The notes under the pieces were generated by a model. The model was not told where the DNA came from. It saw only the letters and a list, made by a program, of their open reading frames with translations, and ran no database searches. Positions 6,131-21,646 of a DNA stretch of 64,000 nucleotides are shown piece by piece. Numbering within the stretch: position 1 is the first letter of the stretch; every line of letters starts with the position of its first letter. The position numbers and the translations under genes were made by a program. Source of the stretch: Geodermatophilus bullaregiensis (lineage in GTDB: Bacteria; Actinomycetota; Actinomycetes; Mycobacteriales; Geodermatophilaceae); NCBI RefSeq assembly GCF_016907675.1, contig NZ_JAFBCJ010000001.1, positions 3,782,001 to 3,846,000 of the forward strand. Direction: 5' to 3'.

Positions 6131-6390
6131 CGCCCAGGTGGGCGATCGTGTCGACCAGGGTCGAGCGGGACACCCCGAACCAGCAGGCCAAGACGTCATG
6201 GGTGACGCCGTGACGCAGATGCACGAGGGTGGCCAGCAGTCGGTCGACGAACACCAGCCGGCACCGGGCGCCGGCCCCGACCGCCCGCCGGCGTGGCCGA
6301 TCGGCCAGCCGTGCGTCCTGACGCGCCTGCCAGCGCGGTCCCAGCTCGGCGACCAACTCAGCCAGCACTTCCCGGGAGAGTCCGGTCACC
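6131..6390 (-). pseudogene. IS5-family transposase, N-terminal HTH remnant
   Basis: The minus strand encodes VTGLSREVLAELVAELGPRW, then RHGVTHDVLACWFGVSRSTL. These are hallmarks of the N-terminal HTH_Tnp_4 region of IS5-group transposases. The homology stops at about 6131, and the DDE catalytic domain is absent; the LuxR gene ends 22 bp further left. It has no clear start codon of its own and is a relic. Confidence 0.6.
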
Positions 6391-8401
6391 GGCGATCGGC
6401 GACAGCGGCGGCACGGGGCAGTGTCCTCGACACACCACCACCCTGCTCCGTCCGTCCGCGCGAGTCGCCCCGCAACCGTCCACGAGGTCGTCGGAGACAC
6501 TCGGGGCCGCGGCGGCAGGAGTGGCTCGGCCTGGCGTGGTCGCAGTTGTGGTCGCAGTTGGCGGCGTTCGCGTCCGTGCGCCGATGTTCGCCGTTGTACG
6601 AACCAGCACGTCGATCAACGTACGGAACGACGGCGAACCGCCGTGAACGCGATCGACGGCCTGGCAGTGTGGGGGTCAGGGGTTCGAGTCCCCTCAGCTC
6701 TACCAGATAGTTGTTTCTCGAACCCCTGACCGCGGAAGCGGTCAGGGGTTCGTTCTGTCTTGAGGCTGACGGACGACGTGCGGTCGTCTGCCAGCCGTGG
6801 GACAGAGCCTGCAGCTCAGCAATGGTTATCGACCGCAGGCGCAGGTCGCGCTGGACCTCAGGTGCCAGGAGCAGGCGGAAGGGCTCGGCCAGCTCGCGGT
6901 TGACGGACTCGTCGTCGAAGACCAGCAGCTTGGCGAAGAACACCTGGTTGAACTGCCGGCGCAGCTTCGGCTCAGCCAAGGCGTACGCCCGGTAGCAGTC
7001 CTGGGCCAGGGCCAAGGCGTCGTCAAGCGTGCCGAGCACCCGCTGCAGCCGTTCGTCGGCGTCCTGGAGGTAGGCGGCAGCGATGGCGAGCTCGCGGCTG
7101 ATGCGCTCCTGCTCGCTTCTCAGCAGGTCCAGCGGCAGGGCGCCGGCGTAAAAGGCCTGGAGCAGCTTCTCGCGCTCAGCCTGCAGCTGCTCCCGGCGGT
7201 GCTGCTGGCGGGCCCGCTCGGCCACCAGCTGCTCGTTGGCCGCCCGGAACTCCTGGCGCAGCAGGCGCTGCAGCTCAGCGGCGGCTGCTGCATCGAGCCG
7301 GATGGTCTGGTACTCCTGCTCGACCAGATCCTCGACGACGTCGATCGGCAGGGCTCGCTGCCGGCAGTCCGTCCGCCGCTCATGCCGCCCGGCGCAGATG
7401 AAGTACTCGTAGCGGGTGCCGTGGCGGTTGGTCTTGTGGTCGACGAGCAGCCGGGAGCCGCAGCGGCCGCAGAAGACGCTGCCCTTGAGGTAGTGGTGGT
7501 GGAGACGCTGCTTCTCGCCGGCGTAGCCCTGGGCGCTCAAACGGTCCTGGACGGCCTGCCACAGCTCAGCTGAGACCAAGGGCTCGTGGCGGCCGGGGTA
7601 CTCGACGCCGCGGTAGCGGACGACGCCCTTGTAGTAGGGATGCTTGAGCAGCCGGGTGAAGTGGCTCAGCACCAAGGGCTTGGCGGTCCGGGCCTTGCTC
7701 GGCCGGGTGGTCAGACCGCGGGCGGTCAGTTCCGTCAGCAGGCCCCGCAAGGTCCAGTCGCCGCCGGCGTAGGCCTCGAAGGCCCAGCGCATCAGCGGCG
7801 CGCGCTCGGGATCAAGCTCGACAGTGCGCAGCTCGCGGCCATGATCGGAGCGGATGACGTTCTGGTAGCCGACGGGCGCCCGGCCGGTGGTGCCGCCGCC
7901 GGCGGCCTTCTGCACCAGGCCCTTGGAGACCTCAGCGCCGAGGTTCCGGGAGTAGAACTCGGCGATCGAGCTCATGATGCCGTGCAGCAGCATGCCGCTC
8001 GGCGTCTCGTCGATGTTCTCGGAAACTGAGACGAGCCGGGCGCCAGCCTGCTGGATGGCCAGGTTGATCATGACGTCGTCCGCCCGGGAGCGGGCCAGGG
8101 GGTCGACCTTGTGCACCACGACGTAGGTGATGGGCTGCTGCCGGAGGAACTGCAGTAGCCGCTGCAGCTCCGGTCGGTCGGCGCTGCGGGCGCTCTCGCC
8201 GCGGTCGACGAACTCCTCGACGACCGAGGCGCCGAGCGCCTCGGCCTTGCGGTAGCAGGCCTGACGCTGGGCCGGGATGGAGAAGCCCTCCGCCTCGCCG
8301 CCGCGCTCGGCCTGTTCCTTAGTGCTCACCCGCAGGTAGATCACCGCAGTAGCCGAGGCGGATTCGGGCAGGACCGGGCTCTCCGACTTGGACAGGCTCA
8401 C
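6386..8401 (-). CDS. large serine recombinase (integrase), tail fused to host DNA
   Basis: Site-specific recombinase for integration and excision of the element. The N-terminal resolvase domain has AVIYLRVSTKEQ with the nucleophile Ser in RVST, then DRGESARSADRPELQRLL. The recombinase domain spans roughly residues 170-290. The zinc ribbon is FCGRCGSRLL...FICAGRH...DC (about residues 305-345), followed by a coiled coil rich in Gln/Arg/Glu (about 380-470). The start is GTG 8401, overlapping the upstream frame. Residues after about 550 translate the inverted repeat and the tRNA fragment (LVELRGLEPLTPTLP) and then low-complexity Arg-rich host sequence. The native protein therefore probably ended near residue 550-565 before integration. 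Confidence 0.85.
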   Translation of the reverse strand: MSLSKSESPVLPESASATAVIYLRVSTKEQAERGGEAEGFSIPAQRQACYRKAEALGASVVEEFVDRGESARSADRPELQRLLQFLRQQPITYVVVHKVDPLARSRADDVMINLAIQQAGARLVSVSENIDETPSGMLLHGIMSSIAEFYSRNLGAEVSKGLVQKAAGGGTTGRAPVGYQNVIRSDHGRELRTVELDPERAPLMRWAFEAYAGGDWTLRGLLTELTARGLTTRPSKARTAKPLVLSHFTRLLKHPYYKGVVRYRGVEYPGRHEPLVSAELWQAVQDRLSAQGYAGEKQRLHHHYLKGSVFCGRCGSRLLVDHKTNRHGTRYEYFICAGRHERRTDCRQRALPIDVVEDLVEQEYQTIRLDAAAAAELQRLLRQEFRAANEQLVAERARQQHRREQLQAEREKLLQAFYAGALPLDLLRSEQERISRELAIAAAYLQDADERLQRVLGTLDDALALAQDCYRAYALAEPKLRRQFNQVFFAKLLVFDDESVNRELAEPFRLLLAPEVQRDLRLRSITIAELQALSHGWQTTARRPSASRQNEPLTASAVRGSRNNYLVELRGLEPLTPTLPGRRSRSRRFAVVPYVDRRAGSYNGEHRRTDANAANCDHNCDHARPSHSCRRGPECLRRPRGRLRGDSRGRTEQGGGVSRTLPRAAAVADRR
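6671..6705 (+). other. 3' end of a tRNA gene (T arm, acceptor strand, CCA); likely attachment site
   Basis: T stem AGGGG (6678-6682), T loop TTCGAGT, stem CCCCT (6690-6694), 3' acceptor strand CAGCTCT, discriminator A and encoded CCA (6703-6705). The matching 5' acceptor strand (AGAGCTG or GGAGCTG) and a D arm are not present in the 80 bases upstream, so this is a 3' fragment. It abuts the 3' end of the serine recombinase gene, as expected of an att junction. Confidence 0.6.
6719..6752. repeat. 15-bp perfect inverted repeat sharing the tRNA T-arm sequence
   Basis: Arms 6719-6733 and 6738-6752 are perfectly complementary around a GGAA loop. The right arm repeats GGTCAGGGGTTCG, the same 13 bases as the tRNA fragment at 6674-6686. 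It could be an att half-site, an intrinsic terminator for the recombinase gene, or both. The recombinase frame reads through it. Confidence 0.6.
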
Positions 8402-9095
8402 GCCGGACTCCTCATCCAGGGGCGCTTCAGGCGGGCGTAGGTGGCTGAGTCTGCGCCCGCGGCGCGTTGTCCGTCGGCGGCTGTCCCCAGGCCGAGGTGA
8501 GCCAAGCGGCGGCTCATGGCCGGCGGTGAGACCCCGAAGCGGTTACACAGGCCGCTCCGGCCATGCAGGTATTGGCAACCCTCACCCCAGGCTCGGTAGA
8601 CCCAACGCTTGGGCATGAGCAGGCAGGCGGCGAAGTAGTCGGCGGCCAGCTCAGCCTGGCTGTAGGCCGACAAGCCGGGGCGGTCGACGTACAGCTCGTC
8701 GTGGTAGCGGTGGTCGATGACGTGCTTGAACTCGTGCGCCAGGCTGAAGCGCTGGCGCCGTAGCGGCTCGGACCCATTGACCACAATGAGCCAGCGGCCG
8801 GCCTGCCACGAGGTGCAGCCGGAGACCGGCAGGTCGACGTCGGTGCGCAGCAGCACCCGGGGCAGTTCGGCGATCAGGGCGGCTGGCGTTGGCGGCCGGA
8901 TAGGCCGGCCAGCTCAAGCAAGGCCGTGGCCTGCCACTCGGCGACCTGAGCGGCCTCAGCCGGATTGAGCGGCCGGCGCGGCGCCTTGGCCCGCAGCACC
9001 GCCAGGACGGCGCGTTCACCGTGCGGTGCCAGCCGCGACGTCGGCAACGGCATGTCGTCATGGATGTGGTTTATTGCTACTTTCTTTCCCTTCAT
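8398..9095 (-). pseudogene. ImmA/IrrE-type metalloprotease, frameshifted
   Basis: Two overlapping-frame pieces make one ImmA/IrrE protein. The first, ATG 9095 (RBS GGGAGG upstream), gives a 73-aa N-terminal helix region ending LLELAGLSG and stops at 8874. Continuing in the next frame gives PTPAALIAELPRVLLRTD and then the protease domain with the zinc motif HEFKHVIDH and the downstream acidic segment AELAADYFAACLLMP. ImmA-type proteases cleave the partner XRE repressor to induce a mobile element. The XRE gene lies 15 bp upstream. A GTG at 8856 could start a shorter protein, but it would lack the conserved N-terminus. A real frameshift, programmed shifting or a sequence error are all possible. 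Confidence 0.65.
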
Positions 9096-9110
9096 ATCTC
9101 CCTCCTTTCG

Positions 9111-9485
9111 TTAGTGCATATCAGGTTTCTCGTCTTCGCCGTCATGCGGACCCTGGTGCAAGTCGCCGTAGCGGGCGACGTAGTTTGTTACTTCGTCAAT
9201 GACGGCGTCAGGCAGGTCGTACTTGGCCCGCAGGTACAGCGGCAGTGGCGGCAGCTGGTCGCGCGTCCGTTCGTCGAGCAGGCCAAAGACCGTGGCCTCC
9301 GGCAGCTCCAGGGCGGCGGCGATGCGCTGGAGGTTCTCCGGTGACGGCTGCCGGACCTCACCGAGCTCGATGCGGGCCAGGTAGGACTTGTGGAGCCCCG
9401 TTAGGTCAGCCAGTTGGCTGAGGCTGAGACTGGCTTCCTGACGACGGTTTCTCAGTAATGTGCCGAGCGGTGTTTTGTGGTGCAT
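9111..9485 (-). CDS. XRE-family transcriptional repressor
   Basis: A 124-aa protein with a canonical HTH_3 domain in its first 65 residues: GTLLRNRRQEASLSLSQLADLTGLHKSYLARIELG read in pieces, with recognition helix GLHKSYLARIE and the typical IAAALELPEATVFGL ending. The C-terminus is acidic and short. It lies directly upstream of the ImmA/IrrE gene in the same operon, the arrangement of ICEBs1 ImmR/ImmA, so it probably keeps the element silent. A 20-bp palindrome 39 bp upstream of its start (9524-9544), repeated before the transfer operon at 13.2 kb, is its likely operator. Confidence 0.82.
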   Translation of the reverse strand: MHHKTPLGTLLRNRRQEASLSLSQLADLTGLHKSYLARIELGEVRQPSPENLQRIAAALELPEATVFGLLDERTRDQLPPLPLYLRAKYDLPDAVIDEVTNYVARYGDLHQGPHDGEDEKPDMH

Positions 9486-9523
9486 GTAGGGATTTCCTGT
9501 CTAGTGCCTCTATTATCGTCCAT

Positions 9524-9544
9524 TCGTCGCAGGCCTGCAACGAC
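9524..9544. promoter_or_regulatory. palindromic operator, copy 1
   Basis: The core GCAGGCCTGC is a perfect palindrome inside CGTCGCAGGCCTGCAACG. It lies 39 bp upstream of the XRE start codon and matches two sites at 13.2 kb (consensus CGTYGCAGGCNTGCRACG). Binding by the XRE protein is inference. Confidence 0.6.
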
Positions 9545-9565
9545 AATGTGCTAGTTGGAAGTGTG

Positions 9566-9889
9566 TTAGCTGTAGCCGTCGAAGACGTATGTGCCGCCGT
9601 TGTCCGGCAGATCGACGATGTGGTAATGCCCGGCCTGCTCGAAATCAGCGACGACTGCAGCCCCGTCAAGCCGGACGTACGCCCGCAGCCAGTCGGGCAG
9701 CCGCTACAGCCGACGGTCGGCGCCAAGCTCGGACAGCAACTGCTCCCCGAAGGCCTGGCGGTCCCGGTAGCGGCCAAGGTAGGCCTGGTGGAAGCGGTCG
9801 ACGTCCTGGCTGCCGGTCCAGTATTGGAAGGCGTCCCAGGCGATGCTCGTCTCCCGGGCGGCCTGGTCCGCTGCTTGTTCGTGGTTCAT
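9566..9889 (-). pseudogene. ArdA-like antirestriction protein with in-frame amber stop
   Basis: ATG 9889 follows a strong RBS (AGGAGG). The frame encodes AWDAFQYWTGSQDVDRFHQA, YLGRYRDRQAFGEQLLSELG and then a TAG after ADRRL. Without any frame change it continues RLPDWLRAYVRLDGAAVVAD and GHYHIVDLPDNGGTYVF to TAA at 9566. The combined sequence resembles the C-terminal half of ArdA DNA-mimic proteins (FxxAYxGxYxSxxxFAExLxxExG...LPxWLxxYxDxxAxxxDL). Such proteins protect a transferring element from restriction enzymes. One nonsense codon separates it from a full-length reading frame of 107 codons. Confidence 0.55.
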
Positions 9890-9905
9890 GGTTCCTCCTT
9901 TCCTT

Positions 9906-10723
9906 TTAGTGATCTCCGGCGTCGGGCTCCGCCGGAGGTGGTCGGCTGTCCAGTTCGCCTTCCGTCAAGGCCGGCAAGGCCTCGGACTGCAGGGCGACGG
10001 CGTGCAGCTCGGACGTCAGGCGCGGCGACCGCAGCAGCCGGCGCAGCTGTTGGGCCCGCTGGTCGCTCGGCACCAGCCAGACCACCCGGGGAAGGCCTCA
10101 GCCGTGGCCTCGACGCCGCCGCGGTAGGCGGTCTCGTACTGCCGTAGCTTGCCGAGCAGCGCGGGGGAGTGCTCGGTGCCCTGGTCAAGCTCGACGAAGG
10201 CGTGCAGGGCCTCCTCGCCGATGCCGATGACCAGGTGCAGGTCGGGCTTGAGCCAGTCGCCGTCAGCCATCCGTCGCCAGGAGCGCGGCTCTGTCTCGAG
10301 CGTCAGCAGGTCGAGCAGGCCGCGCTGTTCGGCCTGGCGCAGCTCGACGTACAGGTCGCCGATGGCCAGGGTGTGCCGCAGGAAGCCGTCGCGGACCTCA
10401 TGCAGCCGGCGCCGCGGTGCGCCCGGATGCAGCAGCCGGACACCGGCCGGCCCGAGCCCGTAAACGAAGCCGCTGCTGCCAGCGCGCAAGCCGCCGATCT
10501 GGCGCTCCAGGCGAGCCAATAGGCCGTGCCGGGTCAGCCGGGCGAGCAGACGCCGGGCGGCCCGGGCAGCCGTCTCACCTTCGCCGACGTGCAGCCGCTG
10601 CAGCTGCCGGCCGCTGAGCAGCCGGCAGCGGTCGACATCGCCGAGCACCGCCCAGTCGCGGGCCGTCAGCTCCTGCCGCAAGCGCTCCAGTCCCGCCGCC
10701 GAGAGGCGGGGGGCGACGGTCAT
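9906..10723 (-). pseudogene. replication-relaxation family protein, 1-nt frameshift near C-terminus
   Basis: ATG 10723 with RBS GGAGGT. The first ~205 residues match Replic_Relax (PF13814) proteins of actinobacterial plasmids and integrative elements. They have a winged-helix start (LGDVDRCRLLSGRQLQRL), the LARLTRHGLLARLER segment, and FLRHTLAIGDLYVELRQA, then AFVELDQGTEHSPALLGKLR. In the present frame the end degenerates (EAFPGWSGWCRATSG) and stops at 10016. Adding one C in the CCCC run near 10090 restores FPRVVWLVPSDQRAQQLRRL and continues to TAA at 9906, 17 nt before the ArdA-like start. The function of the family in conjugative DNA processing is inferred from its company (TraG-like ATPase next door). 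Confidence 0.65.
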
Positions 10724-10847
10724 GAGGGACCTCCGTGCCACACCTCTGTCCCGTCCCGTGGGGACGGCGACTGGCCACCTGACCAGGGCGAAGGCCCGAG
10801 CGTCCAGCACCTGACCGGAGAGGCGATCGGATACCTGGGACGACGGT

Positions 10848-13004
10848 TCATGCCGGCCTCCGGGTGCGGCCGATCGGCCGGTTGCCGTTGCCGGGTCCGT
10901 CGATGACGGCTTGCAGGGCCTCGTCGGTTTCCTGGCGCGGCACGCCGTAGTGCTCCTGGCTGTACCGCCGGATCGTCTCCGGATCGCTCGCCTGCTCCGG
11001 GGCCGGCCTGGTCAGCCCCGACATGTAGGGTGTTACGGCTGCGCCGACGCTGAGCCGGAGGTAGACCTCGTGGGCCGCCAGCTGGGTGAAGTCCTCCGGC
11101 TGGACTTCGCGGTGGCCGCGGGCCAGCAGCCGGGCGTCGTCGGCGGCGGTCTGGAAGATGACCCGGCTGCGGGCGTTGGCCAGGGCGCCGCTGCGCAGGG
11201 CCGGGTTCAGCTGGTCGAGGTGCTGGTTGGCGATGGCGAACATCAGGCCCAGCCCGCGCGCCTGGGCCAGCATGTCTCCGAGGTCGCCGGGCAGGGCGGC
11301 GTAGTCCTGGAGCTCGTCGACGACCACCGACACCAGGTGCCGCCGCTCCGGCGGGATGGCTTGGCGGCCGAGGGCAGCCTGCCATAGCTGGTTCAGCAGC
11401 AAGGTGCCGAGCAAGCGGGCGCTGTCCGGGCCGAGCACGCCCTTCGCCAGGTTGGCCAGCAGGATGGGTCGGCGGCTGGAGAAGAGGTCCGGCAGGCTGA
11501 AGCGCGGCGCCACCTGGCCGAGGACCGCGCGCAAGGCCGGCCGGGCGGTCAGGGCGCGCACCTTGTTCAGCACCGCCGCCACCGTCTGAGCCTGGGCTTC
11601 ATCGCTGAGGCGCTCGAAGGCAGCCCAGATCGGGGAGACGCCCAGCGGATCGTCCAGCTTGCCGACGATGCGGCGCCGGAAGCTGCCGTTGGTCAATAGC
11701 GGTGGCAGCAAGGCCAGACTGGTGCCAGGGGTGCGGGCCAGCGTCAGCAGGCTGGCGTGCAGCAACTCAGCCAGGCGCGGGCCCCAGCTCTCGCTGTTCA
11801 GGCGGGCCAAGACGCTCAGCAGCTGGTCGGCGACCAGGTCAGGCGGAGCGGTCGTGGCCAGCGGGTTCAGCCCGACCGGTGCCTCGTCGGCCGGATCGAG
11901 CAGCACGATGTCGTCCTGGCGGTGATCCGGCACCCGAGCCAGCACGTCCTGGACCAGGTCGCCTTTCGGCTCCAGGACGACAACCGTCCGTCCGGCGGCC
12001 ATATCCTGGACAATCAGGTTGAGCAGCGTCGTCGACTTACCGACGCCCGTTGGGCCCAAGATCCACAAATGGTGGGCGCTGTCGACGGGCGTCAAGGCCA
12101 GGGGCCGCTCGGCCAGCGGGTCGACGGCGACGATGCGCCCGGACCTTGGCACCTCCGGCGGCACTGGCAGCAGCCTGGACGGCCGGCGGGCGACGGGCGG
12201 CAGGGGCAGGTCGGACAGGGGCCAGGCCAGCAAGGCGGTCAGCTCATGCAGGTTGCAGGCCAGGCCCCAGAACAGCGGCTGCCGTACGGCCATGACCGCG
12301 CTCGGCCGGAGCGGGCGGACGCCGAGGCGGGCGCCGGGCCCTTCGGCGGTCCGCAGGGCGCTAAGCAGCTGACCGAGCAAGGACAGGCCCCGCTCCCGGC
12401 TGGTGGCCTGGATGGCGATGCGGCCGACCAGGCGCCAGCCGGCTTCGCCCTGCTTGCTGCGCAGGGCGCGGCGGGCTTCGGCGTCGAGCTCGGCGGGCGC
12501 TTTGAACGGGGCGCTGGCCATGGCCCGCGGCCAGGACTCGCTGAGGACCGGGCTGTGCCTGTTTGGTACGACAACAGGCCGCCGCACCGGGCCGAGCAGC
12601 CACTGCAAGGTGACGATCTCGTCGGTGCGGGCCACGGCCAGGGCGGTGAGGACAGTCTGGCTGACGGCCGCCGGCTCGTCGGTCCGCAGCGGCTGGGGGG
12701 AGGAGGACGACCACAACCGCCAGGCCGTCTGTGGCTGGCCGACATCCGGACCGTCACCCGGCTCGAAAGCCAGGCCGGGCACCGCGCTACGGGCCTGGGC
12801 CAGCAGGCCGGTCATCCGCTCCGAGGGCAGCCGCAGGAAGTGATTGACGCGGCCGGCGTGCCCGACGGCCTGGAAGGTCACCGGCCGGTCCTGGTGAGCG
12901 CTGCCCAGGCCGTGGAAGGCACGGAGCAAGCTCGTCAGCTGCGCCGGCTCGACGACGACCGGGAAGCGGGGCCGGAACCACTCGGGCGCCGTAGCGCCGC
13001 TCAT
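10848..13004 (-). CDS. TraG/VirD4-like conjugation coupling ATPase
   Basis: A 718-aa P-loop ATPase. The N-terminal ~300 residues carry no recognisable motif. The motor domain has Walker A ILGPTGVGKSTTLLNLI (about residue 320), the VVVLEPKGDLV strand, Walker B VVVDELQDYA (about residue 565) and a downstream FAIANQHLDQL sensor region typical of type IV coupling proteins. No N-terminal transmembrane segment is obvious, unlike VirD4. It most likely pumps or docks element DNA during transfer. Its start overlaps the stop of the small upstream gene (ATGA), so the two are translationally coupled. The replication-relaxation gene follows downstream. Confidence 0.82.
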   Translation of the reverse strand: MSGATAPEWFRPRFPVVVEPAQLTSLLRAFHGLGSAHQDRPVTFQAVGHAGRVNHFLRLPSERMTGLLAQARSAVPGLAFEPGDGPDVGQPQTAWRLWSSSSPQPLRTDEPAAVSQTVLTALAVARTDEIVTLQWLLGPVRRPVVVPNRHSPVLSESWPRAMASAPFKAPAELDAEARRALRSKQGEAGWRLVGRIAIQATSRERGLSLLGQLLSALRTAEGPGARLGVRPLRPSAVMAVRQPLFWGLACNLHELTALLAWPLSDLPLPPVARRPSRLLPVPPEVPRSGRIVAVDPLAERPLALTPVDSAHHLWILGPTGVGKSTTLLNLIVQDMAAGRTVVVLEPKGDLVQDVLARVPDHRQDDIVLLDPADEAPVGLNPLATTAPPDLVADQLLSVLARLNSESWGPRLAELLHASLLTLARTPGTSLALLPPLLTNGSFRRRIVGKLDDPLGVSPIWAAFERLSDEAQAQTVAAVLNKVRALTARPALRAVLGQVAPRFSLPDLFSSRRPILLANLAKGVLGPDSARLLGTLLLNQLWQAALGRQAIPPERRHLVSVVVDELQDYAALPGDLGDMLAQARGLGLMFAIANQHLDQLNPALRSGALANARSRVIFQTAADDARLLARGHREVQPEDFTQLAAHEVYLRLSVGAAVTPYMSGLTRPAPEQASDPETIRRYSQEHYGVPRQETDEALQAVIDGPGNGNRPIGRTRRPA

Positions 13005-13192
13005 CGGGCCTGCTCCTTGGGCGATGGCCCGGCATCGGGGGTAGTGCCATTAGCGGCAGCCGCCTGGTGGGCTGCCTCAGCCTCCGCTTCAGCCCGCGCG
13101 CTCGCCAGCTCGATGAGCGCCCGGCTCAGCTTCTGCAGGTCCGGTTCCTTGCGCCGTATCGCACGAATGCGCAGGCGCCTTTTGTTTGGCAT
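13001..13192 (-). CDS. small basic/Ala-rich protein, first gene of transfer operon
   Basis: A 63-aa protein starting MPNKRRLRIRAIRRKEPDL, strongly basic at the N-terminus, followed by an Ala/Glu-rich helix and a disordered tail. ATG 13192 is chosen over the upstream in-frame ATG 13210 because AGGGGG sits 8 nt before it. It overlaps the ATPase gene by 4 nt. The operator pair at 13224-13277 lies just upstream, so this is probably the leader gene of the repressor-controlled transfer operon. The basic arm suggests nucleic-acid binding. No family recognised. Confidence 0.55.
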   Translation of the reverse strand: MPNKRRLRIRAIRRKEPDLQKLSRALIELASARAEAEAEAAHQAAAANGTTPDAGPSPKEQAR

Positions 13193-13223
13193 AGCTCTAC
13201 CCCCTTTCATGTATTAGCGCGAT

Positions 13224-13243
13224 TCGTCGCAGGCATGCGACGA
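13224..13243. promoter_or_regulatory. palindromic operator, copy 2
   Basis: TCGTCGCAGGCATGCGACGA is a near-perfect 20-bp palindrome located 32 bp upstream of the transfer operon's first start codon. It shares its core with the site upstream of the XRE repressor. Confidence 0.62.
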
Positions 13244-13259
13244 TGTCCATTTCAGTATG

Positions 13260-13277
13260 CGTTGCAAGCCTGCGACG
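13260..13277. promoter_or_regulatory. palindromic operator, copy 3
   Basis: CGTTGCAAGCCTGCGACG is the third copy, in inverted sense relative to copy 1 (its complement reads CGTCGCAGGCTTGCAACG). It is centred 35 bp from copy 2, allowing two repressor dimers over one promoter region. Confidence 0.6.
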
Positions 13278-13369
13278 TTCAATAGTGAATGACAATTCCA
13301 CAATACCGAGCGGTCGTTGCCATCCTCCGACGAAGCGAAGCAATTTGAGATGTTGTTAATTACCGCACC

Positions 13370-13406
13370 GTGGGGCCGCCGTCCGGGTGATGGACGACGG
13401 CCCCAC
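13370..13406. terminator. hairpin between the transfer operon promoter and the small membrane gene
   Basis: Arms 13370-13384 and 13392-13406 pair with one G/T mismatch around a 7-nt loop. It lies 34 bp past the TGA of the minus-strand gene at 13441-13608, so it can terminate that operon before it enters the repressor-controlled region. Confidence 0.55.
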
Positions 13407-13440
13407 CAGTGCAGCTCCGGCAGGAGCCTTTACTGACCGC

Positions 13441-13608
13441 TCACCAGGAGCGGTGGTTGCGGTAGACGGTGATGACGGTGACGGTGATGCCGCCGAGCAC
13501 GACAACGTCGACCACGTAGGGGATGAGCGGGCGGATGAACGCGACGGCCTCCTGGAGCAGGATGCCGAAGATGATCAGCAGCACGAGCAGTTCCCATCCC
13601 CGCTGCAT
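13441..13608 (-). CDS. 55-aa membrane protein
   Basis: ATG 13608 to TGA 13441. The sequence MQRGWELLVLLIIFGILLQE is followed by a second hydrophobic stretch (VVDVVVLGGITVTVITV) and the basic tail YRNHRSW, so two membrane helices are predicted. It is the last gene of a tight three-gene run (13826-14170, 13611-13826, then this one) with 2-nt spacing. GGAG lies 11 nt before the start. No family recognised. Small membrane proteins near conjugation genes sometimes act in mating-channel assembly or exclusion, but that is inference only. Confidence 0.5.
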   Translation of the reverse strand: MQRGWELLVLLIIFGILLQEAVAFIRPLIPYVVDVVVLGGITVTVITVYRNHRSW

Positions 13609-13610
13609 CG

Positions 13611-13826
13611 CTAGCTGCTCCGCCGGCGCCTGAGCTCGTCGCGCGCGGCGAAGTAGGCGTCGTGGACGCGCTGGATCTGCTGCATGGCGACCACCTCGCC
13701 CTGCACCAGGAGGTGCAACTCGGCCAGCCGATCCCGTTCAGCGCGCAGGTAGTGCATCGCCAGGGCGTAGCCGGTGACGATGAGCACGACCGCGATGCCG
13801 ACGATGTCGAAGACGAGGCCGAACAT
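13611..13826 (-). CDS. 71-aa single-pass membrane protein with coiled tail
   Basis: One N-terminal membrane helix (LVFDIVGIAVVLIVTGYALA) followed by a charged amphipathic helix (YLRAERDRLAELHLLVQGE) and a basic end (RDELRRRRSS). The start codon at 13826 overlaps the stop of the upstream gene (TGATG), so translation is coupled. The topology suggests a cytoplasmic coiled-coil domain tethered to the membrane. Family unknown. Confidence 0.5.
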   Translation of the reverse strand: MFGLVFDIVGIAVVLIVTGYALAMHYLRAERDRLAELHLLVQGEVVAMQQIQRVHDAYFAARDELRRRRSS

Positions 13827-14170
13827 CAGCCGTACGCCTGGCCGGTGGTGCGGATGGCGTCCAGCCCGACGGCGGTGAAGACGTCGACCACCCAGCGCTG
13901 GCGGCGCCCGGCGTTGAACGGGTCGCGGGCGATTGCTGCCGCCTCCTCAGCCTCCAGGTCTTCGAGGGCGTACAGGACCTCGTCGACGACCCGCCGGGTG
14001 GTCTGGACGCGGGTTACACCGACCAGGCCACGGCCGAGCTGCTTCGCGACGGCGTACTGGGTGGCCCTCTTAATCGGACGCGGCAGGACCAGCCGGCCGA
14101 TGAGCTCGCCTTCGATGACGCGTTCCTGCTGACGCAGGCCGGCGCTGCCGCGCGCTGGGACTTGCAACAT
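13826..14170 (-). CDS. 114-aa hypothetical protein of the mobile element
   Basis: A soluble, mostly helical protein (RRVVDEVLYALEDLEAEEAA) with no membrane segment and no recognised motif. The start is ATG 14170; only a weak purine-rich site precedes it. It is the first gene of the three-gene run ending at 13441 and is divergent from the plus-strand gene starting at 14418. The ordinary codon usage of the neighbourhood and the coupled downstream start support it being real. The function is unknown. Confidence 0.5.
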   Translation of the reverse strand: MLQVPARGSAGLRQQERVIEGELIGRLVLPRPIKRATQYAVAKQLGRGLVGVTRVQTTRRVVDEVLYALEDLEAEEAAAIARDPFNAGRRQRWVVDVFTAVGLDAIRTTGQAYG

Positions 14171-14417
14171 GGAGTGCTCTCTACTGTCTCTGACGACTGC
14201 CGGGCGCAGCCGTCATCGGAGCCGGTCGAGGTCAGACCGGCAGCGGCTGCCTACTGCTGGCTGGCGCCTGTCCACCAGCCCGCCGCGACGCCGGGGCAGG
14301 GACAGCACGGGGGCGCCGGACAGGTCCGTGGCGGCGCCCTGTCTCAGGGACAGCGCACCGACCGTCCGGCTAACAGGTCAGTCGCGGTTGCCCAGGACGG
14401 CCGCTACCGTCCGGCAC

Positions 14418-15560
14418 ATGGCCGGGCAGGAAGCAGAGCGTCTGCTGATGGCCCAGTTGCTCGGCAAGGCGCTGACGAACCTGCGCGCCGGTATCGGCTG
14501 GCACAAACCCGATGAGGGCTGGCTCAAGCCGTTCCCTGAGGCGCTGCGCAGCTTCTTGGGCGTCGACACGGCGGCGCCGCCGGCTCAGCAACGGGCAAAG
14601 CTTGCAGCCGCGATAGAGCGCGGGCTCAATCGCCTGCCGGAGGCCGACAGAGAGCTCATTGACTGGGCCTGGAACCGCAGCGAGTATGACGGAACTGAGA
14701 AGTGGTCCGATCGCCGGGTGAACCACCGAACAATCAGGGGCTACAAGTCAGTTGAACGAGCCGTCGGGGCGTCAATCAAGAAGCTTGTTGCGGCGATGAT
14801 GCCGCTGCCCGAACCGCCACTGGAAGCAGCACCCGGTCAGGCACCGTCGGCCAAGAACGAGCTCTACCGCGTTTGGGCCTACCGCAAGGACTGGAGTCAA
14901 AAGCGCCTCGACGTCTCGATCTATGTCGAGCCCAACCGGGTGATCGTCCGGGAGACGCGGGACATCGCGGCTCGCCATGACGGCGTCGAGCGCTTCTCCG
15001 TCCGGCGCAGCTACTACTGGGCCGGCACCGCGGTGCAGGTGGATGTCGCCGAGGGCGCCGAACTGGAGCAGGCTTTCGAGCCCAACACGCAGGCGGTGCT
15101 GCTACTCATCCGCGTCCCGCCGACCGCCCGTGGTGATCGGCGCCGCTTCGTGGTTACCTATGAGACGCAGGACATGGCACCCGTCTACAGCAGCGGCTGG
15201 CTCGAGTTCGACGCCTTCACGGCGCGACTACAATTTCGTAACATCCGGCCCAAGACGGTCTGGCTTATCGAGCACTTCCCGCCCAAGATGTTCACGACGG
15301 AGAACATCCGACCGGTGCTGGAGACGTACGCCGAGCCGGTAACGGACGAGGTTGATGCAGTCTGTTACTACGAGCACACCTTCGAGCCGTCCGACTTCAC
15401 GGATGAGGGCGTGGCCTGGGAGCTGCCGGACACGCCGTGGCGCGGCGGTGGACGATCCGACCAGGCGAACCAGGCGCCGCCGAGGCCATCACGCTGTCGA
15501 ACTGACCCGACCCAAGGAACGACGTACCGGCCTAACGGCTCGCCAGCTCCCATACCGTGA
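14418..15560 (+). CDS. 380-aa protein of unknown function
   Basis: ATG 14418 is preferred to the far upstream open frame because homology-like sequence starts there (MAGQEAERLLMAQLLGKALT). The N-terminal ~130 residues are helical and HTH-like (LNRLPEADRELIDWAWNRSE, then DRRVNHRTIRGYKSVERAVG). From about residue 165 the protein becomes beta-rich (WSQKRLDVSIYVEPNRVIVR, then YYWAGTAVQVDVAEGAELEQ), ending in a Pro/Ser-rich tail. No signal peptide or membrane helix. The last 29 bp overlap the end of the convergent membrane-protein gene. I do not recognise a family. Its position beside a kinase and sensor-protein set suggests a signalling or effector role, as inference. Confidence 0.6.
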   Translation: MAGQEAERLLMAQLLGKALTNLRAGIGWHKPDEGWLKPFPEALRSFLGVDTAAPPAQQRAKLAAAIERGLNRLPEADRELIDWAWNRSEYDGTEKWSDRRVNHRTIRGYKSVERAVGASIKKLVAAMMPLPEPPLEAAPGQAPSAKNELYRVWAYRKDWSQKRLDVSIYVEPNRVIVRETRDIAARHDGVERFSVRRSYYWAGTAVQVDVAEGAELEQAFEPNTQAVLLLIRVPPTARGDRRRFVVTYETQDMAPVYSSGWLEFDAFTARLQFRNIRPKTVWLIEHFPPKMFTTENIRPVLETYAEPVTDEVDAVCYYEHTFEPSDFTDEGVAWELPDTPWRGGGRSDQANQAPPRPSRCRTDPTQGTTYRPNGSPAPIP

Positions 15561-16236
15561 TGCTGAAGGTGATCAGGTCATCGGATTGGTTCACTAGGCG
15601 AATGACCGCGTAGCGACCCTCTTCCGTGCGGATGCAGAGGTCGCGTCCATCAAGCTCATTTGGCTCGTTCCCCGAGAAGGCCGACGTGTAGGCTGTCCGG
15701 GTGCTGCAAATTTCGTAAGATCCAGCCTGGCCAGGATCAAGGAACTGCTGACTTGCACTGTGGACCCGCAGGTAGCCGGTGTTCAGCGAGACCGCCCCCG
15801 GATCGTAATCGGTTAGTTGTCCTGCCCGCCAGGTCTCTTCGGTGCTCGGCGCATTGATGTCGATGGCGTCGCCGTTGATGACCAGCTGCACCTCACCTTG
15901 ATGGCGGATCGGAGGCGTCGCAGGGCGATTGGCCGTCGTCGTTGACGGAATCGGAACTGGGGCCGGGGTCGGGGTCGGGGTCGTTGACGAGGTTGCATCC
16001 GGTGTGCTTGATGTTGGAGCCGCGTCAGGCGACGCACTTGAGGACACTGCTGGGCTGGAGCCGTTCACATTGATCGTAATTGCCCCCTGCGCACTGGCGA
16101 AGAGGCCTACCGCTAGAGTCGCAAGAGCGCCTAGTACGCCGCTTGCCAATCCGTTCATCAAGGGGTGCCGAGCAAGCCAATGCCCCTGGTTCGCAGGTCC
16201 ATTAGGTCCCGCTCCTTGCGTCCCGCCAGCCGTCAT
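15532..16236 (-). CDS. membrane-anchored protein with the kinase-type extracellular domain
   Basis: A 234-aa protein: a short cytoplasmic N-terminus, one membrane helix (about residues 27-50, GLASGVLGALATLAVGLFAS), a Ser/Thr/Pro linker with a TPTPTPAPVPIP run, then a ~125-aa extracellular domain. That domain begins IRHQGEVQLVINGDAIDINA and ends FSITVWELASR, with two conserved Cys (EICSTRT, DLCIRTEEGR) likely forming a disulfide. The same domain forms the C-terminus of the Ser/Thr kinase at 19344-20954, with most positions identical by eye. It could be a decoy or co-receptor that senses the same cell-wall ligand. Convergent overlap with the 380-aa gene. Confidence 0.68.
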   Translation of the reverse strand: MTAGGTQGAGPNGPANQGHWLARHPLMNGLASGVLGALATLAVGLFASAQGAITINVNGSSPAVSSSASPDAAPTSSTPDATSSTTPTPTPAPVPIPSTTTANRPATPPIRHQGEVQLVINGDAIDINAPSTEETWRAGQLTDYDPGAVSLNTGYLRVHSASQQFLDPGQAGSYEICSTRTAYTSAFSGNEPNELDGRDLCIRTEEGRYAVIRLVNQSDDLITFSITVWELASR

Positions 16237-16773
16237 GCTTCCCCCAATCCGGTGCCATTCGCCGTGTCCCTAATTTCGAGGCCCGACAGGTCATCGTCTG
16301 CTACGGAGAACTCGGTAGCCTGCTGAGCTTGCTGTTGCAGTTCCATCCAGTTTATATTCATAATGCCCCTAACACGTGCTTGTCCCTTGACCATCCGACA
16401 GCGCAACGTGACCTGAAGGTGCCGCTGATGTCCAGTACGTATTGCTTGATCATAACATCTATGTCGCTATGGAGCCAATTCATGAAGAGGTCCAGCGGGA
16501 GGTCGCACCTTCTCTTCAGGAACATGCCGTTCCAGCGAGTCGTACCTGTCCCGCTGGTCACCGAAAGGCGTAAGTGGCCCAGCGGTGGGACGGTTGGAGG
16601 CCGGACGCACATTACTCGGGTTCGGCAACAAATCACGTCGACCCGCTAGTTAGTCGTTAACGACGTATGGTGGATGGAGCCTCGAACGAGCGCCGCGCCG
16701 CGCGCAGGGTCTCGAGTGTCTAATAGTAGTCACTGGTCGTATTCGGGGCTGTCAGACCAGTTGCTCTTCGGCG
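16237..16773. other. lower-GC gap without a convincing gene
   Basis: This 537-bp stretch has markedly lower GC than the rest of the window. A minus-strand open frame of 92 codons (16358-16636) exists, but it has no clear ribosome binding site, no codon bias and no recognisable motif. I see no RNA gene. Confidence 0.35.
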
Positions 16774-17682
16774 TCAACCTGACGCGCCCGCAAGTGTCAC
16801 TCGCACGCTATCTAGAATCGTCACGTCAACTGGGAGTGCTTCAAAGGCGACAGTGATGTCGCTGCCATGGTCTCGAAACGCCGTGTCGATTGAATTGGAG
16901 CCGGCTATTCCAGCGACTAGGAACAGGTCGTACGACCTGCCTATGTCTTCGGGACCTTGGCCGATAACCACCGAGAATTCCCACCGATTCTCCTGGTCGA
17001 TAATCAGTGGTCTCGTGTTGACTGTATAGTAGCGATTGTCTTCGGGCCTCGTGAGAATCCAAAGGGAATAGTTGTCAGGAAGGTCTGCCAAGCCGCGGGC
17101 TAGGATCGGACTTGCGACCTCGTCGCCATCTGCGGGGAACGTGAAGTTGGCGGCGGTCGTCACGGGCGGAGGCGTCGCAGGGTCCGCAATGGGGGAGATG
17201 CCCACGTTTAGACCGACGATGGTGGCAGCGCCTACGACTATACCGGTTAAACCGATGACGCAAGTAGTGGCGAGCATCCGTTTCCGACGAGGCCTGAGCC
17301 TGACTGGCTTCGACCCGTCGAACCGCTCGGTGCCAAGCGCTTGCTTGGATGCACCTGGAAGCCTCCCCAGCTGACCGAAAGGCTTGGAGCCAGTCGATTC
17401 AGGTTCGACTGACTTATGCTCGAAAGATGTGTCTTCCTGCGATTGCGGCCTGCGCCTCCGACTCAAGGGCCGGGCTAGTCCATAGTAGGTGGCTAGTCCC
17501 AAAAGCAACGCTCCGATGGCCGTTCCACCCCAGCCGAAGGCGCCAGCAATAAGCAACAGGCAACCCATTACGACTGCGGTCGCCAACAGTGCGGTGAGGC
17601 GGGCAACGAAGACCCGCACTGGTGGCCTACTTCCCGCGAAGGAGTGGAGTCTGCGAGTCTTCTCCAGGAGTCGCTCGGTCAT
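16774..17682 (-). CDS. 302-aa multi-pass membrane protein with extracellular beta domain
   Basis: Two hydrophobic helices close together near residues 25-70 (LLATAVVMGCLLLIAGAFGW, then AIGALLLGLATYYGLA), a charged cytoplasmic loop of ~65 residues rich in Arg/Ser/Glu, a third helix near 135-155 (CVIGLTGIVVGAATIVGL) and a C-terminal extracellular domain. That domain contains FTFPADGDEVASPILARG and SLWILTRPEDNRYYTV, the look of an Ig-like module common on bacterial surface sensors. The start overlaps the upstream gene by 4 nt (ATGA). I cannot name a family; with its neighbours it forms a membrane signalling set. Confidence 0.6.
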   Translation of the reverse strand: MTERLLEKTRRLHSFAGSRPPVRVFVARLTALLATAVVMGCLLLIAGAFGWGGTAIGALLLGLATYYGLARPLSRRRRPQSQEDTSFEHKSVEPESTGSKPFGQLGRLPGASKQALGTERFDGSKPVRLRPRRKRMLATTCVIGLTGIVVGAATIVGLNVGISPIADPATPPPVTTAANFTFPADGDEVASPILARGLADLPDNYSLWILTRPEDNRYYTVNTRPLIIDQENRWEFSVVIGQGPEDIGRSYDLFLVAGIAGSNSIDTAFRDHGSDITVAFEALPVDVTILDSVRVTLAGASG

Positions 17683-18062
17683 TCCCGACCGTCCTTAGGT
17701 TGTGTCATAGCTGACGAGCCGCCTCCAGAATCCCTCTGCGCCTGAATGACTTCTTGAATCTCAATCATCCGAGCATCGCGCCTTTGGGACTTATAGTGAT
17801 GGCGGTAGGTATCGTTGGCCCCCCGAAGATCCCAGTATATGAAGATTAGAACCAGCAGGAGCGTGGCGCCCGCGAGTATCATCCGCCCGACTTCCCAATC
17901 GAGGTGGCCTTTACTGGGCACCTGTGCAATCGCCCAGTCGAATGCCCATAGAATCAGGGCCCAGCTAGCGAGTAGGATGCTGTCGAAAAAGATGACAAGC
18001 AGGATATTCAGCCTGCCAGTCACCATTGAACGTATCGGACCCGTAGTCCCGGGTTCATGCAT
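17679..18062 (-). CDS. two-helix membrane protein
   Basis: ATG 18062 (AAGG 4-7 nt upstream) gives a 127-aa protein with two membrane helices (LNILLVIFFDSILLASWALI; MILAGATLLLVLIFIYWDL) and a charged, helical cytoplasmic tail (YKSQRRDARMIEIQEVIQAQ). An in-frame earlier ATG (18089) adds only a Gly-rich segment. The stop overlaps the start of the 302-aa membrane protein gene, so the two are a coupled pair and probably work together in one membrane complex. No family recognised. Confidence 0.55.
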   Translation of the reverse strand: MHEPGTTGPIRSMVTGRLNILLVIFFDSILLASWALILWAFDWAIAQVPSKGHLDWEVGRMILAGATLLLVLIFIYWDLRGANDTYRHHYKSQRRDARMIEIQEVIQAQRDSGGGSSAMTQPKDGRE

Positions 18063-18339
18063 ACCTTCGGCTCTCCCCCCTCCCTGCAAGGCGAGGCAGC
18101 CCTGCAGGGTTCAGCAAGCCTAGACGCGACGCGCTGTGTCCGCAGCCAAGGTCAACGCACTGGAGTGGTTGCTGCATCGTGGCGTGCGCGCATCGTAGCC
18201 GGGAAGCTGCGGGGAACTGCTGCGCAAGGTCCCCCTTCGTCATCGAACCGCGCGCCCTTCCTCAACGATCTCGCCCGTGGCTGTCCCGTCCAGGTACGCC
18301 AGCACCGTTTAAGGCCCGTAGCACGACACTGGGGTTTTC

Positions 18340-18459
18340 TCAACGCATTGGTCGTTCGGTGGTGGTGAGGATAAGGGCTGCGGCGACGATGGCACCGATT
18401 CGTCGTGGGCAGAGTCGGATTCCGTTCAAGGCCTTCCAGCGGGTCTTGAGCCAGGGCCC
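18340..18459 (-). pseudogene. transposase C-terminal scrap
   Basis: The minus strand encodes GPWLKTRWKALNGIRLCPRR, then IGAIVAAALILTTTERPMR and a stop. The pattern (LKxRWxALxxIxLxPxRIGxIxAAALVL) is that of the end of IS5-type DDE transposases. Only these ~40 residues remain, and the match starts exactly at the left edge of the inverted-repeat element at 18452. Confidence 0.45.
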
Positions 18460-18701
18460 GTGCAAAGTCAGCTTTGCACGGTCTGACCTGCGGTTATGGC
18501 GGCCAGCGGCCGAGGTCGAGCCTGCTGAGCCGCCGCTGTGCCCCTCACCTGCATGGTGAGCACTTGACTTAAGCCCAGGTCGGAGCGACTTGGCGGTCGG
18601 TCTCTGGACACGACGGCCCGGAGTCGGCACCGGATCGCAGCCTCTCTACGCCGGCATCCGAGCAGGTCAACCGCGTGTCTGATGACTTTGCACGGGCCCT
18701 G
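18452..18701. mobile_element. 250-bp element with 19-bp perfect terminal inverted repeats
   Basis: CAGGGCCCGTGCAAAGTCA at 18452-18470 is repeated in perfect inverted form at 18683-18701. The 212 bp between hold no gene. A further partial copy of the repeat (GCTTTGCACGG) follows the left end, making a small hairpin. It has the form of a MITE or of paired IS ends. I see no clear target-site duplication. Confidence 0.5.
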
Positions 18702-18794
18702 CCCTGACCCTGGGAGCCCGTCCCTACATCAACTCCGGCCGCCACCAGCGCCGCTGCATCAGGCCGTCACGTCGCCGACCGAAGCCGGTGAGAA

Positions 18795-19224
18795 AGCCTC
18801 AGTGATGCCGCAGTGCGTTCTTCACGACCGTATGGTCTTTACCGAAGTGATCACCGATCCGCGTCAGCGACTACCCCTCCCCATACAGCCGGATGGCTGC
18901 TTTGACCTGCTCGTCTGTCAGTCCGCGCCGCCGCAGCACGCCGTTGGTGTTGAGCAGCCTCAGCACCGCGCCTTGGCTCAGTCCGTACGTCCGTTGGAGG
19001 TACTTGGTGGATTGATCTGCCTGATAGTCGGCGAAGAGCTGGGCGGTACCGTTCAGGCCCGCTCGGTCCTCGGCTCGCTGCTTCTGACGGGGTGTCCCTG
19101 GTGGAACCGACCGTGCCGCACCTTGCGGGAGTAGCCGCCAGACTGCGAGCAGTCGCTTGAACGCTCGACCGGGGGGTGAGCCGAGCCGCCAGCTCCCACT
19201 CGTCTGGGGTCAGGAGGTCGACAT
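18795..19224 (-). pseudogene. decayed copy of the HTH gene at 21083
   Basis: The minus strand encodes YLQRTYGLSQGAVLRLLNTN, then GLTDEQVKAAIRLYGEG, a TAG, and SLTRIGDHFGKDHTVVKNAL. This parallels the HTH protein at 21083-21352 position by position. Upstream pieces in shifted frames (VDLLTPDEWELAARL, then AFKRLLAVWRLLP) match that gene's extended N-terminus. At least two frameshifts and one nonsense codon make it a pseudogene. Confidence 0.6.
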
Positions 19225-19343
19225 TTTAACCCTCGCCGCGCGTCGAAGGGGGAGCGTCACCAAGGTGAGGGCTATATGGACGACCAGTGGTGCATCATGA
19301 GGCCTCGACTCAATGAGCCGGGCGCTGTCAAATGCTCGATTGC

Positions 19344-20954: not shown

Positions 20955-21082
20955 CCATCCACGCCTGTTTCATCGTCCAACGGGTGTCGGGGCAGTATCC
21001 GACACCGCGAGCGGTGCCGTCCACACCGATCAGGCCGGCCAGTTGTCAAGGCCCCGGTGCTGAGTTGTGGAGCTGACCTCCT

Positions 21083-21352
21083 CTAGCTGGGCGGACTGTT
21101 CCGGCTTAGTACACCGGCCCGGCGAAGAGCGTTCCTTACGACGGTGTAGTCCTTGCCGAAGCAGTCTCCGATCCGCGTCAGTGACCAGGCTTGGCTATAC
21201 AGTCGGATAGCTTCCTGGATTTGCTCGTCTGTCAGGCCGCGCCGCCGGCGCGGCACACCGTTCGCGTCGAGCAGCCGCAGGACCGCGCCCTGGCTCAAGC
21301 CGTACGTCCGCTGCAGTTTCTTGGTAGACCGGCCGGCCTGGTAGGCGGCCAC
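21083..21352 (-). CDS. helix-turn-helix protein (recombinase-type HTH), start uncertain
   Basis: A GTG-started 89-aa frame with two HTH motifs: KLQRTYGLSQGAVLRLLDAN and LTRIGDCFGKDYTVVRNALR, separated by RRRRGLTDEQIQEAIRLYSQ. The frame stays open well upstream of the GTG (to about 21600) and encodes VDLEARLSNPNTAFKQLLKR and WRQLPTDLQPLIKTRKRR. That matches the N-terminus of this actinobacterial HTH family, so the real protein may start further upstream where no good start codon is evident. The family resembles the C-terminal DNA-binding part of resolvases. A decayed copy lies at 18795-19224. Confidence 0.5.
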   Translation of the reverse strand: MAAYQAGRSTKKLQRTYGLSQGAVLRLLDANGVPRRRRGLTDEQIQEAIRLYSQAWSLTRIGDCFGKDYTVVRNALRRAGVLSRNSPPS

Positions 21353-21646
21353 CAGCTCGGCGACGCCGCCCGGCCCGAGTCGGTCCTCGGCTCGCTGCGG
21401 TGGGCGGCGCTTCCGCGTTTTGATCAGTGGCTGCAGATCAGTTGGCAGTTGCCGCCAGCGCTTCAGCAGTTGCTTGAATGCTGTATTAGGGTTCGAGAGC
21501 CGAGCCTCCAGGTCTACCCCGTTGACCAGGTCGTTCCCCGTCCCGGGGAGCGGCCTGAGTCGTCTGTGGTCGTGGTCGGCCCGGCCGTGCCCGCCGACAG
21601 CACAGCCCCCTTGAACGGCGGCCTCCAGGCAAGGGTGCGAGCGCCG

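Follow-up and report, generated by a model that had tools for sequence, protein, structure and literature searches.

Why does the reading frame of a large serine recombinase (LSR) run through its own attachment site and on into a fragment of a tRNA gene? The question is raised by a 64,000-nucleotide stretch of the chromosome of Geodermatophilus bullaregiensis (assembly GCF_016907675.1, contig NZ_JAFBCJ010000001.1, positions 3,782,001 to 3,846,000; hereafter the window), in which such a gene stands at one end of a 14.8-kb mobile element that we call C. We propose, with high confidence, that the feature is the attL junction of C, that the enzyme belongs to a family of LSRs targeting genes for tRNA or transfer-messenger RNA (tmRNA), and that attP lies inside the integrase gene, so that integration splits the gene into a catalytic part, intN, and a helix-turn-helix (HTH) tail, intC, left at the far end of the element.

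The recombinase frame crosses the attachment site

The features on which the argument rests are the following (window positions; nt numbers refer to the tRNA, as defined below).

6386..8401, minus strand: intN, the present-day large serine recombinase (catalytic, recombinase, Zn-ribbon and coiled-coil part)
6661..6704, plus strand: third chromosomal copy of the tRNA-Ala(GGC) 3' part; attB-type half-site of attL
6683..6687, plus strand: TTCGA of the T-loop (nt54-58), the attB-type motif; its distance from the attP centre (nt71 = 6700) is 13 nt
6700..6703, plus strand: attL core, nt71-74, the crossover stretch in relatives
6718..6722, minus strand: P' arm of attP, TCGAA, the T-loop motif mirrored, 18 nt from the centre
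6719..6752, no strand: hairpin with 15-bp stem and 4-nt loop, terminator-like, overlapping the P' arm
about 6700..21514, no strand: mobile element C, 14.8 kb, delimited by the distal-arm scan and flank matches
21083..21511, minus strand: intC, 142 aa, a tail with two HTH domains that continues the recombinase frame in the predicted circle
21492..21496, plus strand: distal P arm, TTCGA, 18 nt from nt71 (21514)
21514..21517, plus strand: attR core, nt71-74
21518..21570, plus strand: flank and terminator that follow tRNA-Ala in the genus, displaced by insertions

The recombinase open reading frame (ORF), 671 aa long, carries the Pfam domains Resolvase, Recombinase and Zn_ribbon_recom, that is, the catalytic domain, recombinase domain and zinc ribbon by which LSRs are recognized. 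Its frame passes leftward through the hairpin, attL and the 3' part of tRNA-Ala into a neighbouring inserted stretch, B, and stops at 6386. Approximately 105 codons lie past attP, of which the first dozen or so derive from the tRNA fragment and the remainder from B. A preliminary description, made from the letters of the window, had seen the frame cross a 15-bp inverted repeat and a tRNA 3' end sharing a 13-mer, had placed the attachment site within the frame and had expected the intact tRNA gene elsewhere, all of which was borne out. The tRNA search of the window alone returned 0 genes, and the whole tRNA-Ala(GGC) gene lies at chromosome positions 3759246-3759320, 29 kb upstream of the remnant. 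The complete chromosome, 5.2 Mb long, has exactly 5 copies of the 13-mer GGTCAGGGGTTCG and 0 of its pattern read backwards. Three copies are in the window, at 6674-6686 (plus), 6719-6731 (minus) and 6740-6752 (plus), because both arms of the hairpin carry it, and the other two are outside.

Relatives of the recombinase were collected from 98 genomes, 13 of which had matches at E<=1e-40, and from an order-wide sample of 249 genomes, 32 of which had matches at E<=1e-70, the genome of G. bullaregiensis being included in both counts. A tRNA search placed a convergent tRNA or tmRNA gene at the 3' end of the recombinase in 39 of the 43 relatives' loci, upholding the earlier proposal that a serine recombinase here targets the 3' end of a tRNA gene. 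Two of the other four loci, L032 and L143, are at contig ends, L152 is a tandem with a displaced target and L154 is unexplained; these four are outside the alignment of 39 rows. Across the 39 aligned relatives and the window, 40 loci in all, the frame of the recombinase showed no stop over at least 300 codons ahead of nt72 and continued into the tRNA; it was the same frame every time, each other frame being open in 0/40. The tail of intN meets its stop within the tRNA in 18/40 loci and past it in the others. The 40 rows showed 27 distinct lengths of the spacer that separates attP from the last conserved residues, indicating that the frame was preserved through many in-frame insertions and deletions. 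The preliminary description had the integrase continue past its natural end, which the alignment contradicts, as the recombinase has a stop ahead of the tRNA in 0/40 loci. It also had the ORF end in host-derived sequence, which is more likely the end of the inserted stretch B.

Attachment sites follow a spacing rule

To define the attachment sites, the 39 junctions were aligned with nt73 as the discriminator base and nt71 taken as the centre. In tRNA targets the T-loop motif TTCRA occupies nt54-58, 13 nt from nt71. Its mirror image, TCGAAC, starts at nt89 with at most one mismatch in 34/39 rows (exact in 12), and appears at any other offset from 74 to 117 in at most 2/39 rows; this P' motif stands 18 nt from the centre. 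The P' arm resembles the T-arm of its own tRNA at 124/240 positions, compared to a shuffled mean of 99.7, with 0/5000 shuffles as high, although the rows are kin and the test hence yields no clean probability.

The distal end of each element was sought as a left arm mirroring P' about nt71. With the centre set between nt71 and nt72 few clear matches emerged; with the centre on nt71 the scan succeeded. In the window it led to position 21514, where TTCGA again lies 18 nt from nt71. On the same side of C, the P-arm motif is thus 5 bp farther from the core than the tRNA motif (18 versus 13), whatever centre is chosen, and the two ends of C have 6 bp in common (TCTACC). In serine integrases the motif bound by the zinc domain is displaced by 5 bp toward the centre in attB relative to attP, as set out in passages of PMC3783163. 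Judged by sequence, the arrangement in C is that of LSR attP and attB sites, with a short core and the 5-bp shift, and the nearly invariant T-loop GTTCGA probably serves as one attB half-site.

The sequence to the right of 21514 matches the tRNA-Ala flank of the genus: matches of ~50-120 bp were found in 17/25 other genomes of the genus, beside either the tRNA itself or a copy of its 3' part. The empty site of C rests on this terminator region, with no longer host match seen past the flank. Matching element-free sites were found for three elements, namely C, the element in genome G012 at tRNA-Arg, whose site has a flank resembling the end of another element and is perhaps not pristine, and the element in G061 at tRNA-Ala(CGC), with an empty site in G088. 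A flank search for L036, whose genus has only 2 genomes, yielded no empty site. The P arm and the tRNA disagree at nt70 in G012, L024 and L036, and at nt75 in L024 and L030, so the crossover falls within nt71-74.

The P' arm often makes up one side of a strong hairpin. In the window, the fold of a 60-base stretch has -40.4 kcal/mol (z -5.8), and z was below -2 in 25/40 loci, compared to 1/40 control stretches deeper in the gene. The hairpin likely also acts as a substitute terminator for the tRNA, the original one having been displaced.

The predicted missing part of the gene lies at the far end of the element

If attP lies inside the gene, closing the element into a circle should restore a longer protein. 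The modelled circle junctions of seven elements were in frame across attP in 7/7 cases, leading into tails that are 97-148 residues long and contain one or two HTH motifs. Five of these distal ends were top matches of the scan, that of L024 was tied for the top and that of L034 was second, the latter two having been picked by eye before translation. A profile of the seven tails recovered an HTH tail ORF in 21/38 elements (L160 and L161 are aligned but have no far side), including 14/31 outside the profile set. For four of these 14 (L144, L148, L155 and L158), the best of 34-40 thousand scan positions falls in frame in the HTH ORF. Among 20 elements, the chosen site came first in 10 (one tied), ranked 2-4 in another 5 and 9-31 in the remaining 5; L135 was omitted from this table, its HTH part being fused to the next recombinase. 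The rank-1 sites were drawn from 28,974-60,114 positions, and all ten are in frame in the HTH ORF. Shuffled arms equalled the rank in 0-6/200 trials for 14 elements.

The tail evolves as a protein. The ratio of nonsynonymous to synonymous substitution rates (dN/dS) of intC was 0.27-0.53 over five pairs, dS being high. For the two most closely related pairs the values were 0.35 and 0.32 (0.41/1.19 and 0.45/1.44), compared to 0.10/0.70 and 0.12/0.51 for intN, so the tail is constrained yet faster evolving than intN. The structural model of intC consists of two three-helix HTH units (pLDDT 89.6, pTM 0.60); Foldseek returned weak matches only (best E 0.016), including the bipartite HTH domains of the Mos1 and Tc3 transposases.

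An unsplit form of the gene was found in genome G103, where a natural 733-aa ORF contains Resolvase, Recombinase, Zn_ribbon and HTH_23/HTH_7 domains. Two elements are in tandem there, and the second recombinase crosses an attP-like site and continues with an HTH part fitting the first: this part resembles the L137 tail, and the L137 recombinase is sister to the first G103 recombinase. In the model of the 733-aa protein (overall pLDDT 75.3), helices are predicted at 380-427 and 433-476, suggesting long coiled-coil helices after the Zn ribbon, as in LSRs.

The HTH ORF at the far end could instead be a separate gene, such as one for a directionality factor, that adjoins attP, with the open frame arising by chance in G+C-rich DNA. 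HTH proteins are indeed frequent in such elements, a possible start codon lies near the beginning of some tails (Met at position 2 in L030 and L033), and the fusion protein is predicted from sequence. We nevertheless consider this explanation unlikely, given that all 10 elements with the scan top in the HTH ORF (one tied) are in frame, a result expected in ~1 in 59,000 cases if frames are equiprobable and elements independent, that none of the 40 recombinases stops before attP, and that the G103 gene is a single continuous ORF.

Repeats of the tRNA 3' part fit neighbouring insertions

The preliminary description had taken the 13-mer as a tRNA-derived att core. Copies of the tRNA-Ala 3' part start at chromosome positions ~3781638 and ~3788661, the latter being that of the window, and the order is: intact tRNA, stretch A (22.4 kb), copy 2, stretch B (7.0 kb), copy 3, serine recombinase. 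The repeated 44-bp blocks start at the anticodon loop. The idea that they form the core of the serine recombinase draws on the presence of three copies, one of which the recombinase abuts, but several observations make it very improbable. No distal tRNA repeat of more than 27 aligned columns was found in the elements of 13 relatives, and we dropped the 44-bp blocks as the serine enzyme's own att sites since distal blocks are missing in relatives. The ends of C share only the 6 bp given above, its right end at 21514 contradicts a 44-bp core, and the second copy of the 13-mer sought on the right of the element is absent there. Furthermore, we reason that a half-site common to attP and attB would abolish directionality.

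The blocks fit tyrosine-type elements instead, because extra copies are widespread, occurring in many genomes of the genus among the matches listed, whereas a relative of the recombinase at E<=1e-40 exists in only 1/25 other genomes of the genus. Consistently, the intact tRNA is adjoined in A by genes for a tyrosine integrase and an HTH_17 protein, and A fits a tRNA-targeting tyrosine-integrase element, with the integrase at the tRNA and a direct repeat of the tRNA 3' part distally. Stretch B encodes an abhydrolase, an FAD-binding protein, a LuxR-type regulator, a transposase-type HTH fragment and one ORF without a match; no integrase was found among these five ORFs.

Separately, the tRNA-Ala(GGC) region at chromosome positions 3759246-3788704 is an apparent insertion hot spot in the genus.

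Finally, a chance read-through, in which a decayed recombinase lost its stop and ran into unrelated sequence, would account for a tail past the tRNA fragment that is foreign to the recombinase family, yet entry into the tRNA in the same frame in 40/40 loci leaves this idea a negligible probability.

One enzyme family uses many tRNA genes

The 39 target genes comprise nine tRNA isotypes and tmRNA: Ala 12, Arg 8, Val 4, Lys 3, Leu 3, tmRNA 3, Ser 2, Trp 2, Glu 1 and Pro 1. On a tree of the 40 recombinases the target labels require 17 changes (minimum possible 9; shuffled mean 25.0), and close relatives have unlike targets, for example L135 (Lys) and L137 (Val), L144 (tmRNA) and L153 (Ala), and L141 (Leu) and L145 (Val).

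Two far more distant serine recombinases from IMG/VR, with ~30% identity (L271:7510-7583 and L274:7510-7583), also end inside a convergent tRNA-Gln gene; frames that enter the target tRNA may occur beyond the clade studied here.

Signs of stacking were seen at two further loci (joined coordinates). In L150, two HTH ORFs (17994-18314 and 18974-19357) lie beyond a tmRNA insertion and have a P arm apiece, pointing to stacked insertions at the tmRNA. L034 has two stacked elements near 22452 and 24897, with an apparent remnant recombinase tail joined in frame to the HTH part of its neighbour.

A model of integration and the points that weigh on it

The tRNA targeting, motif spacing, open frame, far-end HTH part and one unsplit gene, all read from sequence, point to the following scheme. 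In the circular form, C would encode an integrase of roughly 710 aa consisting of the catalytic part, Zn ribbon, coiled coil and HTH tail, with attP presenting the T-loop motif mirrored on both arms, each 18 nt out. Recombination between attP and the tRNA would cut the gene at attP: intN would remain at the tRNA and gain a tail from the antisense strand of the latter, and intC would be left at the far end, apart from the enzyme. Later insertions at the same tRNA (A, of the tyrosine type, and B, its integrase gone) would have displaced C from the intact gene, which is why intN would now run into B. As the circle explains the open frame, the tRNA-encoded tail need not be functional, although it may be.

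The HTH tail most likely acts in integration or in the choice of direction, and its loss would commit the element to the integrated state. The likeliest version is that the tail is needed for efficient integration or for suppressing excision, such that its loss separates the two directions. Because the catalytic, DNA-binding and coiled-coil parts stay intact, this would be not a simple suicide but maybe a change of state.

Several observations weigh against our model. The circle was computed, with neither a circle nor an excision observed. Only one unsplit gene was seen: when the 733-aa G103 protein was compared with the 249 genomes, the only one of 46 places aligned in full was the query itself, the others ending at or before residue 608. 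Matches in plasmids and phages (the latter searched with the window's protein only) were below 60% identity and none covered more than 80% of the query, and a scan of contigs for intact copies gave 9 distant loci, at best 26-33% identical. No intact copy was found in four IMG/VR scans, nine of the 67 loci in the largest being inspected. Two of these scans had no relatives and one had a single 89% relative that stops before attP. In the scan with 67 loci, five were at 46-53% identity, one of them on the contig of the 89% relative, and the sole match to the HTH tail among the nine inspected was weak (E 0.007) and unfused.

The HTH part was not located in 17/38 elements over 9-63 kb, some to the contig ends, and 7 of the 21 located tails had built the profile. 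Five of the 20 chosen sites reach only the lowest ranks given above, shuffled arms equalled the rank in 22-51/200 trials for L137, L157, L023, L035, L145 and L146, the top scan position is elsewhere in 11 HTH-tailed elements including L135, and HTH matches also occur at other places in some elements. The aligned rows are related by descent. At the att sites, the right half of attB has no evident motif, and nt72 is T in both attL (6701) and attR (21515) while being C in the tRNA of the genus, a pattern that simple crossover leaves unexplained. The target may already have carried T, or a mismatch may have been resolved to T at both junctions.

For the clade as a whole, we give even chances to a broader scenario. 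Integration would strip the HTH tail and add a tRNA-encoded peptide, the loss acting as a one-way switch; tandem insertion, as in G103, would rebuild a chimeric integrase and could re-arm the array; and the T-loop half-site would allow hopping between isotypes and tmRNA.

Other genes of element C

Between its ends, C carries the following genes.

8398..8856, minus strand: IrrE/ImmA-like peptidase M78
9111..9485, minus strand: HTH_3 regulator
10016..10810, minus strand: Replic_Relax (replication-relaxation) protein
10848..13004, minus strand: TrwB-like coupling ATPase
19344..20954, minus strand: Ser/Thr protein kinase

The Replic_Relax protein and the TrwB-like ATPase are candidate transfer proteins, such as an integrative mobilizable element or an actinomycete integrative and conjugative element would carry. 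A second ORF resembling the HTH tail (E 8e-18) lies inside C at 18874-19209 on the minus strand and has no good P arm; it is perhaps a relic of an older insertion.

Comparison with known systems

If the model is true, the self-splitting logic of archaeal integrases (see below) has also arisen in bacterial enzymes of the unrelated serine class, where it spares the catalytic domain, raising the question of whether integration-driven loss of a domain can replace or assist a separate directionality factor. A T-loop half-site would also explain how one enzyme family uses many tRNA genes. The att rule (13 nt in the tRNA, 18 nt in attP) helps to find element ends, which viewed gene by gene present as a ragged-tailed recombinase and, at the opposite end, an orphan HTH ORF, and is perhaps of use for genome-engineering tools that insert beside tRNA genes.

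Mycobacteriophage BPs shares part of this logic, although the gene affected there is reportedly the repressor and not the integrase. As outlined in portions of PMC4557955, its integration-dependent immunity arises because the position of attP makes integration alter a gene product.

Known LSRs, such as the A118 LI integrase, Bxb1 and phiC31, resemble the enzyme of C in their Resolvase, Recombinase and Zn-ribbon domains, short core and 5-bp motif shift (PMC3783163). Unlike in these LSRs, attP lies in the gene here, an HTH tail is C-terminal, the half-site is a T-loop and the targets are many tRNA isotypes and tmRNA. In 2011, serine recombinases at tRNA genes were deemed rare, with phage phiRSM1 (tRNA-Ser) and actinomycete integrative and conjugative elements (AICEs) of Mycobacterium (tRNA-Leu) as the cases given in sections of PMC3218068; each has a single target, and those sections describe neither a split gene nor a T-loop rule. 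Among the matches listed by our literature search, as far as their accessible text extends and with subscription papers mostly outside its scope, there was no serine integrase with attP inside its gene.

The closest parallel is provided by the suicidal (SSV-type) tyrosine integrases of archaea, whose gene contains attP and is split on integration, often at a tRNA, and a 2021 review of archaeal tyrosine recombinases states, in the portion available, that self-disrupting integrases are exclusive to archaea (PMC8371274). An attP in the gene and a split on integration are found here too, for a predicted circle, whereas the Phage_integr_3 tyrosine type is not, Pfam assigning the enzyme to the serine class. 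In contrast to the SSV type, the enzyme class is unrelated, the hosts are bacteria, and the catalytic part stays whole, with only the HTH tail lost. Thus, the enzyme of C is an LSR by membership that works like a suicidal integrase without being one, and it appears to lose its DNA-binding tail at each insertion.

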